The notes under the pieces: generated by a model | What the model was told of the DNA's origin: nothing | What the model saw: only the letters and a program-made list of their open reading frames with translations | The model's database searches: none | Made by a program: the position numbers and the translations under genes | Source: Campylobacterota bacterium | GTDB taxonomy: Bacteria > Campylobacterota > Campylobacteria > Campylobacterales > Arcobacteraceae | Reading direction: 5' to 3' | NCBI GenBank assembly: GCA_003643835.1 | Contig: QMKX01000015.1 | Location: 1 to 35,936, forward strand | DNA length: 35,936 nt | In this document: piece by piece, positions 10,525-35,936 of the stretch | Position numbering within the stretch: position 1 is the first letter of the stretch | How the letters are laid out: the number at the start of each line of letters is the position of its first letter

Positions 10525-10540
10525 GGTTGTCTCACTTTTA

Positions 10541-10666
10541 TAGAAACATTTTCACTTCGTGAAAATTAGCTGTGGCGATTTGCCTTGGCAAAACAAGAGA
10601 ATCGCTTTTTTGCTCACAAAAAATGTTTCCTGTAAAAGTTTCTGTGAAAAGCGATTCTCTTGTTTT
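10541..10666. repeat. Incomplete copy of the modular hairpin repeat, with a 20-bp inverted repeat
   Basis: Modules shared with the elements at 16023-16319 and 35672-35936: GAAACATTTTCAC hairpin (10543-10566, stem TTTTCAC/GTGAAAA), TAGCTGTGGCGATT, and a small hairpin TTTGCC/GGCAAA. A perfect 20-bp inverted repeat AAAACAAGAGAATCGCTTTT follows (10590-10609, partner at 10647-10666) enclosing AAAAATGTTTCCTGTAAAA. The terminal inverted repeats of the full elements are absent. The right arm ends 3 bp before the toxin stop codon, so the stem may form in the toxin mRNA 3' end. No U-tract follows, so it is not a classical terminator. Confidence 0.75.
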
Positions 10667-16022: not shown

Positions 16023-16319
16023 AGGTCATCTCTAAAATATCTATAGCTTATAGAAGCTGGAAATAAAATAAGATATTTTCACAGAAACTTTTTCGCTAAA
16101 GCGAAAATCGCCACGGCTAGTTTTACAGGAAACATTTTCGCTGAAGCGAAAAGCGATACTCTTGTTTTCACAGAAACTTTTTCGCTAAAGCGAAAAACTT
16201 TCTGTGAAATTTTTATGAACTTTTATTCATCAAAAGTAGCCGAGGCGATTGGACAAAGTCCAAACTTTCTGTGAAAAACTGCTCCTTCTATGAGCTATAG
16301 AAGTTTTTAGAGGTGCCCT
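16023..16319. mobile_element. MITE-like element with about 35-bp terminal inverted repeats and hairpin modules
   Basis: The left end AGGTCATCTCTAAAATATCT (16023 on) continues with ATAGCTTATAGAAG. The complement of the right end reads AGGGCACCTCTAAAAACTTC then TATAGCTCATAGAAG, so the ends form 34/35-bp imperfect inverted repeats. The body has three TTTTCGC/GCGAAAA hairpins, TAGCC(G)TGGCGATT-type modules in both orientations and a GGAC-AAA-GTCC hairpin at 16250-16261. There is no reading frame, so it would need a transposase from elsewhere. No clear target duplication is visible. The right 40 bp is nearly identical to 35897-35936. The 16320-16454 stretch beyond it shows only a short repeated motif (AGTTTCAACTCCA at 16426 and 16459). 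Confidence 0.78.
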
Positions 16320-16454
16320 ATAATATATTGAGGATGTACTGCTAACATATTTTAATCCTTTTGATAAATTTTGACTTATTGTATCAAATTAAACGGACAA
16401 CTCCAAAAAAGGCACTCCAAATCGGAGTTTCAACTCCAGAAATGGTATATAAAA

Positions 16455-17350
16455 TCAAAGTTTCAACTCCAATCCTGACTGGCTTATATATTTGTCTATC
16501 TGTATGTTTAGCTCCTGCTGGAGTGCGACTGGCGATAGTATCTCGATATGCGGTATCCAATACCGCACAAACTTTATCGCCTCTGCTTTATATGAAAACA
16601 CAGCAGATATCTCGTAGTGGTCTGTGTGTTTGGCGACTATGCTTTGGTGAGGTAGTAGCTGGTGTCTATCAAAATACTCTACGACTGATATATTAACCCA
16701 AAGCAACACTTCTATACGGTTTTGAGAGAACCACACTGCTTGGTTTTTCTCTATCAATTTTATAAATTTTTGGTTTGATTTAAATATCTTTTGGGTATTT
16801 ATAAACTTTTTTATCTTTGCAAAACTATATGTTTTGAGCTGTTTATCTTCCTCCGCACTCAAATACCATATACCATAAGTATTGACAAGCTTATATGGAT
16901 GGACGGTTCGTGATTTATTGTTATATGTGAAGTTTATGGTTTGGTTTTTGACTATGGCTATGTTGATATCTGTAAATAGCTGTGTATTTTCGCTGATATC
17001 TTCGTATTTTGTATTTTTTATCATAAAAGCATGGTTTACTTTGGTGTTTAGCAAATCCACCACAAACTCACGATCAAGCGATGGATACAGCTCGGCTATA
17101 CCACTGATACTTGCGAAGTTGTTTATATCTTTGAAGCTTAGCTTACATAGACAATACGGTGCTATAGTATATCTGTCGTGCTTTTTCTCTATAGGTAAAA
17201 ATATGAGTCGTTCGTTGATCGCACGATATATCGTGCGATATGACACTCCAAATTCTAGGGTAGTTCATCTATGGTAAAACTCTCACCTTCGTTAAATTTG
17301 GTCAGTATCATGGCAAGTCTTTTGCCTATAGTATCGTATGATCTTGTCAT
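16455..17350 (-). pseudogene. WYL-domain transcriptional regulator with a frameshift after the N-terminal helix-turn-helix start
   Basis: ATG at 17350 encodes MTRSYDTIGKRLAMILTKFN up to ...TIDELP, then TAG at 17255-17257. In another frame the protein continues EFGVSYRTIYRAINERLIFL and a further 240 residues. One lost base at about 17255-17260 explains this. Restored, it has an N-terminal helix-turn-helix (DELxxEFGVSYRTIYRAINE), a WYL domain (TVHPYKLVNTYGIWYLSAEE) and a WCX-like C-terminus. Regulators of this design (BrxR/CapW kind) often control neighbouring defence genes, here the type I locus. It starts 13 bp after aspS stops. A 22-bp perfect palindrome lies in the helix-turn-helix coding part. 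Confidence 0.85.
17218..17239. repeat. 22-bp perfect palindrome inside the WYL gene
   Basis: The 22 bases read the same on both strands: half-site ATCGCACGATA followed by its complement. They encode SYRTIYRAI of the helix-turn-helix. A perfect 22-bp palindrome is rare by chance in a window this size. It may arise from the repeated R-x-I-Y-R-x-I codons, or it may be an operator, for example for autoregulation. Confidence 0.6.
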
Positions 17351-32023: not shown

Positions 32024-32679
32024 ATTATGCGATGGCTTTAGAATATCAAAATTGTATTAATTGCAAAGCATGTGAAGTTGGATGTAAACAAGAAAATGGT
32101 GTGCAACTTGGTGCTGACAAACAAAGAATATGGATAGGACAAAATGAAAGTTTCATATTTGAAAATCCTAATATCAACTTTTATCCATCTCAATGCAATC
32201 ATTGTATAGATGCTCCTTGTGTCAATGTTTGTCCTACAAATGCCAGCTATTTTACAGATGAAGGTTTGGTGCTTACAGATAAACAAAAATGCATCCTTTG
32301 CAAAGGATGTATGGAAGCTTGTCCTTATGATGCGAGATTTGTAGATGACAAATATGTGGCAGTTGATAAGTGCACATTTTGTTTTGATACAAGGATAAGC
32401 AAAGGCAAGACAACAACCGCATGTGAGGTTACTTGTCCTACGAAGGTTAGATTGTTTGGAGATTTGGACGATGAAAATAGTGAATTGGTGCAACTTCTAA
32501 AAAAGAAAAAATTTTTTGTCCTCAAGCAAACGGAAAAAACAGTGCCGAAACTATTTTATATATTTCCAGATGACGAGCAATTTGCTATCAACTCTATAGG
32601 CAAAGATACTACTATACATACATGGGATAGTTTCAAGCCAATTATGGATAAAGCGATGAAAAAAAGAGGTAAACTATGA
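32020..32679 (+). CDS. psrB: Four-cluster ferredoxin subunit PsrB
   Basis: Electron-transfer subunit between the quinol-oxidising membrane anchor and PsrA. The 219-residue protein has four Cys clusters: CINCKACEVGC, CNHCIDAPCVNVCP, CILCKGCMEACP and CTFCFD...CEVTCP, the pattern of DmsB/PsrB/PhsB with four [4Fe-4S] centres. ATGA overlaps with psrA and psrC (4 bp each) couple the operon. Confidence 0.95.
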   Translation: MNYAMALEYQNCINCKACEVGCKQENGVQLGADKQRIWIGQNESFIFENPNINFYPSQCNHCIDAPCVNVCPTNASYFTDEGLVLTDKQKCILCKGCMEACPYDARFVDDKYVAVDKCTFCFDTRISKGKTTTACEVTCPTKVRLFGDLDDENSELVQLLKKKKFFVLKQTEKTVPKLFYIFPDDEQFAINSIGKDTTIHTWDSFKPIMDKAMKKRGKL

Positions 32680-32730
32680 AAACAAGAGAATCGCTTTTTG
32701 GCGAAGAGAAAAATGTTTCCTGCAAAACTT
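32676..32730 (+). repeat. Dispersed repeat module inside the start of psrC
   Basis: AAAACAAGAGAATCGCTTTT (from 32678) then 13 bases then AAAATGTTTCCTGCAAAAC matches the arm and loop at 10590-10639 and, in the opposite orientation, 16125-16170 (AAAACAAGAGTATCGCTTTT ... AAAATGTTTCCTGTAAAAC). The copy is in frame and adds no stop codon. Confidence 0.75.
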
Positions 32731-34001: not shown

Positions 34002-34330
34002 ATGTGTCCCAATGCACAACTACATTGTAGAGACTTAAGTATATAGCATAAACTAGTTTGGTGTTCAGTAGAATTGATAACCATGTCTATATTTTTATTT
34101 TATTTAATTGTCTTCAGGAACCCTATACGATAGATTAGGCTTATTGTTAAGTTTACTACAATATAGGTAGTCCAAGTTGTAGTTGGTTTGACGATTTGTC
34201 CCTAATAGATTCTTTAGTTTCAGCAGTCTTCAAATATAGAGCATATTTCTCTATATTTTCACTTTTAGGCAAAATTTATTTTGTTGTGATACAATATAAT
34301 GTTCAAAACCAAATCAAAAAGGAGTTAAAT
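34002..34330. other. 329-bp gap after psrC, no confident gene
   Basis: No intact gene is seen. A minus-strand frame (TTG at 34272 to TAG at 34156-34158) would encode a 38-residue, protein-like peptide (KYALYLKTAETKESIRDKSS), and another minus frame ends at 34104 (KLNNKPNLSYRVPEDN). The two cannot both be real, and neither has an ATG or ribosome-binding site. They may be remnants of a lost insertion. The last 40 bp hold the promoter of the next gene. Confidence 0.4.
34295..34300 (+). promoter_or_regulatory. Putative -10 box of the WG-repeat pseudogene
   Basis: TATAAT, overlapping a second box TACAAT (34290-34295), 30 bp before the ATG at 34331, with AAGGAG between. Expression signals are kept although the gene is broken. 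Confidence 0.45.
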
Positions 34331-35671: not shown

Positions 35672-35936
35672 AGGTCACCTCTAAAAACCTCTATGCTCAT
35701 AGCTTTAGGATAGCTTTTCATATTGTTGAGTTCTGTTTTGATGGACTACCTGGGTAATTCGAAAGACAGAACTCAACAATATGAAAAGCTATACAAAGCC
35801 CGTAGGGAAGGGTAGTTTTAGCGAAAAAAGTCCATAAAAATTCTTGAATTAACCAGTTAGTACTTCAAAAGTAGCCGTGGCGATTTTGCTTTGCAAAAAC
35901 TTTCTGCGAAAAACTGCTCCTTCTATGAGCTATAGA
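35672..35936. mobile_element. Second MITE-like element (right end beyond window)
   Basis: The left terminus AGGTCACCTCTAAAAACCTC matches the right terminus (inverted) of the 16-kb element. The right part AAACTTTCTGCGAAAAACTG then CTCCTTCTATGAGCTATAGA (to 35936) matches 16263-16302 with one difference. About 17 bp of the right terminus should lie just outside. The body has the AAAAGTAGCCGTGGCGATT module followed by a TTTTGC-TTT-GCAAAA hairpin, and a 26-bp perfect inverted repeat at 35710-35735/35767-35792. No coding sequence; 35628-35671 shows nothing else. Confidence 0.75.
35710..35792. repeat. 26-bp perfect inverted repeat within the second element
   Basis: ATAGCTTTTCATATTGTTGA then GTTCTG (35710-35735) is exactly complementary to 35767-35792. 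With a few more inner pairs the stem reaches about 30 bp around a roughly 22-nt loop that contains ACCTGGGTAATTC. This block has no counterpart in the 16-kb element, so it looks like a nested insertion or inverted duplication. Confidence 0.8.

Follow-up and report, generated by a model that had tools for sequence, protein, structure and literature searches.

The psrC-like gene and its first codons

The window analysed here is a stretch of 35,936 nucleotides from a draft Arcobacteraceae genome (G000), and towards its end lies a psrC-like gene that begins with ATGAAAACAAGAGAATCGCTTTTTGGCGAAGAGAAAAATGTTTCCTGCAAAACTTTTACT (Table 1). Its neighbours are genes for a molybdopterin subunit and a 4Fe-4S subunit. 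We took the product to be an NrfD/PsrC-type membrane subunit from Pfam NrfD matches among the orthologues; the domain was matched by 5/11 aligned PsrC sequences, and the window protein itself gave no match.

Table 1. Features of the window discussed in the text, followed by four copies of a longer repeat on contigs of the same genome.
Feature	Position	Strand	Remark
Three-level nest	10526-10666	.	Module 1 (+, 10594-10637) lies within module 2 (+), and this within an outer module 1 (-)
Module 2 copy (TAGCCGTGGCGATT-hairpin-GTTTCTGTGAAA)	16077-16119	-	
Module 1 copy, perfect inner hairpin TTTTCGCTTCAGCGAAAA	16121-16168	-	
Palindromic unit TTTTCACAGAAAC-hairpin-CTTTCTGTGAAA	16165-16209	.	Two right ends of module 2, arranged head to head
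Module 2 copy with GGACAAAGTCC hairpin	16232-16276	+	
psrC-like gene, NrfD/PsrC-type membrane subunit, 441 aa	32676-34001	+	N-terminus 15 residues longer than that of orthologues
ATGA overlap, psrB stop and psrC start	32676-32679	+	Unchanged here and in both sister genomes
Module-1 repeat behind the psrC start codon, in frame	32679-32727	+	AAAA plus 45-bp stretch (32683-32727) ending in AAAA
Module 2 copy at contig end	35867-35912	+	
Longer repeat with module 2	G000:C1:77563-77716 (L070)		
Longer repeat with module 2	C28:3420-3573 (L071)		
Longer repeat with module 2	C4:6012-6123 (L077)		
Longer repeat with module 2	C9:19394-19498 (L081)		

The first-pass annotation had proposed that about 18 codons at the 5' end of psrC are a copy of a dispersed repeat, in frame, placed ahead of the conserved part of the protein and leaving the overlap with psrB intact. 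The repeat was confirmed: the sequence running from AAAACAAGAG through TGCAAAA is a further copy of the repeats at 10590-10637 (+) and 16121-16168 (-), and the left 20-mer AAAACAAGAGAATCGCTTTT occurs at 18 sites in the 1.43-Mb genome at up to two mismatches (none for the reversed control). The block is absent from all ten PsrC orthologues. In the two nearest relatives, whose proteins are 90-91% identical to that of the window, PsrC starts with MNTFTIAGLEIN and MNRFTIAGLEIN, and the eight more distant orthologues likewise have no block (for example MEKYVIAGLEIN), so that homology begins where the annotation had placed it. The copy in psrC is in frame, and the ATGA overlap with psrB is the same in the window and in the two sister genomes, where the psrC site is empty.

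At the DNA level the empty sites of the two nearest relatives read ATGAATACATTTACT or ATGAACAGATTTACT, against ATGAAAAC...(45 bp)...AAAACTTTTACT in the window, which has exactly 15 codons more. The inserted stretch is therefore exactly 45 bp, positions 32683-32727 or, equivalently because of the AAAA ambiguity, 32679-32723. The proposed length had to be adjusted on this point: two residues (MK) of MKTRESLFGEEKNVSCK belong to the ancestral start, and 15 were added by the repeat. The arrangement fits a single event, in which 45 bp (CAAGAG...TGCAAAA) entered the target ATGAAAACTTTTACT after ATGAAAA, and ATGAAAACTTTTACT (MKTFTIAG) is most likely the ancestral start of psrC.

Between the insert and Met40 there is no in-frame ATG, GTG or TTG, and normal initiation would therefore include the insert. 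From the sequence we infer that translation adds these 15 residues to the N-terminus of the membrane subunit, although initiation further downstream, at an unusual codon, is conceivable. An AlphaFold model placed approximately residues 1-18 in coil with block means of pLDDT of 31-41, in a model that is itself moderate to poor (mean pLDDT 63, 11 sequences); the low values at the N-terminus therefore carry little weight. The extension is probably unstructured, and we regard it as presumably near-neutral.

Two modules with a shared fold

In the fetched loci, to which the survey was confined, we read 50 candidate copies of a module 1 and 39 of a module 2. The family consists of these two modules of about 45 bp, which share one single-strand DNA fold and have inner hairpins that vary in sequence yet remain palindromic. 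Module 1 has the form AAAA-CAAGAGAATCGC-hairpin-TGTTTCCTGY-AAAA and module 2 the form AAAA-(C/G)TAGCCGTGGCGATT-hairpin-(G/C)TTTCTGTG-AAAA, with a unit length of 40-47 bp and an inner stem of mostly 5-9 bp. Module 2 begins with GTAG or CTAG, GTAG being not invariant, and the base after its left AAAA covaries with the base before TTTC at the right end (G..C in 18 copies, C..G in 12, other combinations in 9). The inner hairpins of module 1 comprise 30 distinct sequences in 50 copies; 63% of the distinct hairpins have stems of at least 6 pairs, versus 18% when halves were swapped.

The single-strand fold is common to intact copies of the two modules: an outer stem of 5 bp, a bulge on one side made up of conserved sequence, then the inner hairpin, and a free 3' tail with AAAA at its end. 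Single copies gained little in folding energy over shuffled sequence (z-scores from -0.3 to -2.1), and we therefore base the structural case on covariation and the shared form. The psrC copy has a decayed inner hairpin (TTTTTGGCGAAGAGAAAAA) and no longer takes this fold. Rfam gave no repeat match above the gathering score, and only a tRNA was matched in the window.

Many draft contigs begin or end in modules, for example at 35865-35936 of the window and on G000:C31, C26 and C8; the repeats thus set a limit to assembly, and the true copy numbers are probably higher than those counted. The longer repeat of Table 1 combines module 2 with an adjacent long hairpin (TTGCTTTTTCTTATTTTAAAGTTTTAGCTTGAAGG..CAAAAGCTAAAACTTTAAAATAAGAAAAAGCAA) of which both arms change together between copies, and is possibly a larger relative of the module family. 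Two diverged 33-bp tandem units (CAACTCCAAAAAAGGCACTCCAAATCGGAGTTT) also lie in the window at 16398-16463, with weaker matches at 34153 and 34944.

With exact patterns, which could miss diverged relatives, module 1 was found in all four genomes of the genus (G000 and three relatives, two of which match the public MAGs Arcobacteraceae bacterium GMC7 and GMC3) and in 0/100 other genomes of the family. Module 2, searched in the same way and with the same limit, was found in 3/399 genomes of the order, all three from this genus, and in none of the other 396. A phage or plasmid origin was considered and rejected: the exact patterns were absent from the viral contigs searched, and a BLAST search of plasmids with the repeat gave no match.

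Insertion behind AAAA and nesting

An A-run precedes 46/50 module-1 and 36/39 module-2 copies. Modules also interrupt one another. In the nest at 10526-10666, taking out the innermost module-1 core restores an intact module 2, and removing this module in turn leaves an intact module 1 on the opposite strand with the perfect hairpin AAAACAAGAGAATCGCTTTTCACGAAGTGAAAATGTTTCTATAAAA; each excision step removes a core plus one AAAA. Including this nest, there are four clear cases of module 1 within module 2, all at the corresponding AAAA (in G000, G002 and G003), and module 2 was also found inside module 1, in inverted orientation. An automatic excision test returned similar counts for shifted cuts, given tandem arrays and tolerant patterns, and the nested insertions therefore rest on the individually read cases. 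Since an A-run lies before nearly all copies and the nests obey the same pattern, we conclude that modules enter 3' of AAAA, in a direction that follows the strand of the A-run. Almost every copy has AAAA on either side, as do the nested sites, and these flanking runs may be duplicated target or may be carried by the element.

Copies within genes

The annotation had also suggested that the same peptide might be sought in other proteins of the genome, and a second gene with an empty site came to light. Copies directly preceded by ATG are present in four genes: psrC; a 43-aa ORF (G000:C36) overlapping the next gene, which looks like cytochrome b561; a lipoprotein, PEBP-like by eye (G000:C14); and a putative exported protein downstream of a reverse transcriptase gene (G001:C37). 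At G000:C36 the protein reads MKTREVLFLSKKNVSVKKYIWQ, versus MEKYIWK in the sister G001:C101, and 45 bp are inserted after the ATG; the site is empty in the sister (ATGGAAAAATATATTTGG vs ATGAAAAC..(45 bp)..AAAATATATTTGG). The insertion has thus recurred in another gene. Empty sites are known for these two copies and none is known for the other two. The 45-bp unit is open in the ATGAAAA frame in 4/4 ATG-preceded copies, versus 4/46 others (Fisher p = 3e-4).

Frame is not always preserved. In a helix-turn-helix-like gene of G000:C1, for which G002:C17 is empty, a module-2 copy of 44 bp brings a TAG and a frameshift, and the frame downstream is still open. We therefore conclude that insertion is not aimed at coding sequence and that survival sorts the copies. 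Copies follow ATG in 4/50 cases, against 36/1148 A-runs that do so (p = 0.07); start-codon targeting beyond A-runs was rejected on this non-significant difference, and ATGAAAA, a common gene start, can account for the positions at start codons with no further targeting. Two other candidate coding copies were discarded, as the 253-aa ORF at G000:C2 is read-through of non-coding DNA and the copy at the Fic gene of G002:C25 lies upstream of that gene. Another gene, which by eye resembles a glycosyltransferase, is truncated, with a module-1 copy (L014 1503-1550; G000:C3:83765-83818) at its breakpoint; its longer homologue is in G001:C1 (L145).

Interpretation of the psrC copy

With a probability of about 90%, in our view, the unit of about 45 bp directly behind the psrC start codon is an inserted mobile element, small and non-autonomous, that was tolerated in frame. 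Such an element would have entered psrC 3' of the AAAA run and, ending in its own AAAA, would have left an A-run on both sides. It would have been tolerated because its length was by chance 45 bp and the frame that ATGAAAA sets ran through it without a stop.

The opposite direction, in which the N-terminal block is ancestral to psrC and its copies spread through the genome, would agree with the close match of the psrC copy to the conserved left and right blocks of the family. This reading is nevertheless very improbable, because the sister genomes carry many copies while their own psrC is empty, and because a decayed hairpin is expected of a descendant, not of a source. The orthologues, of which two out of ten are 90-91% identical to the window protein, argue in the same direction: had they shared the N-terminal residues, the annotation would have been contradicted, and none does. 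Somewhat less remote, though still unlikely, is that the start-codon copies represent a selected N-terminal peptide module (KTRESLFxxEKNVSxK) reused on several proteins. The four genes do start with closely similar peptides (MKTRESLFGEEKNVSCK, MKTREVLFLSKKNVSVK, MKTRKSSFFIEKNVSMK and MKIRESLFFTEKNISVK), but any 45-bp copy of this type gives the peptide in that frame, outside genes too (G002:C51, MKTRESLFLAEKNVSCK), and the occurrence next to ATG is not clearly above the A-run prediction given above.

Mitochondrial byp elements (Lang 2014, cited in PMC4478555) are known to be skipped by the ribosome and are of similar size to the modules. If frame-breaking copies such as that of G000:C1 were skipped in this manner, psrC would be a special in-frame case, and the open frame downstream of the 44-bp insert would be accounted for. 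We consider this hardly credible, as a broken gene explains the one frame-breaking genic copy analysed, and skipping does not require that 4/4 start-codon copies be in frame.

How the modules might move

Movement as a folded single strand is what we infer. A single-strand HUH transposase of the IS200/IS605/REP (RAYT) type would be consistent with the shared fold and its one-sided bulge, with insertion 3' of a fixed tetranucleotide that sets the orientation, with the element's own terminal copy of the tetranucleotide, and with the GTAG that adjoins the fold in many module-2 copies. Such a mover is nonetheless doubtful, because Y1_Tnp (PF01797) was found in 0/4 genus genomes (drafts) by a search that was positive in control genomes, and because AAAA is followed by G in some copies and by C in others. 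A reverse transcriptase was rejected as mover, as matches occurred in three genomes and none in G002, the genome with most copies. The reverse transcriptases of G001 and G003 follow a small ORF (L110 24-368 and 307-1509, G001:C37; L222 403-768 and 741-1973, G003:C38) and are possibly of the diversity-generating type, and that of G000 looks different. In G001 the reverse transcriptase stop overlaps the ATGA of the gene that carries a start-codon copy.

We tentatively suggest, as a possibility that the evidence does not yet favour, that the modules represent a new kind of minimal mobile element. A so far unrecognised enzyme would move the unit of about 45 bp in the form of a folded single strand; the unit would enter strictly 3' of AAAA, on the strand bearing this run, would nest within its own copies, and would repeatedly extend proteins because many genes start with ATGAAAA. 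If true, this would be a recurrent natural route to new N-termini. The four small genomes make the mover a well-defined object of search.

Comparison with known repeat families

Selfish repeats tolerated in bacterial coding sequence are known chiefly from Rickettsia. The module family belongs to a different phylum and its units are much smaller; its empty sites are clean, and its target rule, insertion after AAAA, is simple. This rule can account for the occurrence of in-frame copies at start codons and offers a concrete way for proteins to gain new N-termini, and the self-nesting orders insertions in time. No description of the family was found in the searchable literature, which mostly excluded subscription journals. 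In G000, left and right repeat ends pair within about 60 bp, and no longer element with both module ends was seen there, nor a parent insertion sequence with these ends.

Among known repeats, REP/BIME sequences and their RAYT are small hairpin repeats in mosaics, mostly intergenic, with a single-strand fold and a short motif beside the hairpin (PMC3733652, PMC8266576). The modules likewise are mosaic, mostly intergenic hairpin repeats with a single-strand fold and a short conserved motif beside the hairpin, but they occur in a genus in whose four draft genomes no Y1 transposase was found, have in-frame coding copies, and show neither a conserved palindrome (30 distinct hairpins in 50 module-1 copies) nor the invariant GTAG or CGTC tag by which REP are recognised. 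MITEs such as RUP, ERIC, YPAL and others are small, non-autonomous and able to form in-frame fusions with genes (PMC2229807), as are the modules, but the modules are less than half the usual MITE size and seem to have no matching terminal inverted repeats beyond AAACA/TGTTT. The GC42 clusters of yeast mitochondria are 42-nt palindromic elements of an A+T-rich genome, with an AG target, a constrained hairpin and units that merge and shuffle (PMC4478555). The modules too are small palindromic units with a fixed short target, a constrained hairpin and merging units; they differ in residing on a bacterial chromosome, in targeting A-runs, in having two mutually nesting types, and in a stem whose sequence changes while its pairing is preserved; in GC42 most changes fall in the loops.

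The annotation had likened the psrC insertion to Rickettsia palindromic elements (RPE), which are short dispersed palindromic repeats of 105-150 bp, found between genes and in frame inside conserved protein genes, whose product they lengthen (PMC2229807, PMC10969869). The likeness in mode of action stands, as psrC and G000:C36, both with empty sites, show in-frame insertion into conserved protein-coding genes. Membership does not, since the unit is about 45 bp here and has a short variable hairpin with a one-sided bulge in place of the long RPE stem-loop, and since the 4/4 in-frame cases lie at the start codon, 3' of AAAA, in another phylum. As it differs from the described RPE in size, structure, target and host, the family would be one that works like RPE but is not RPE.
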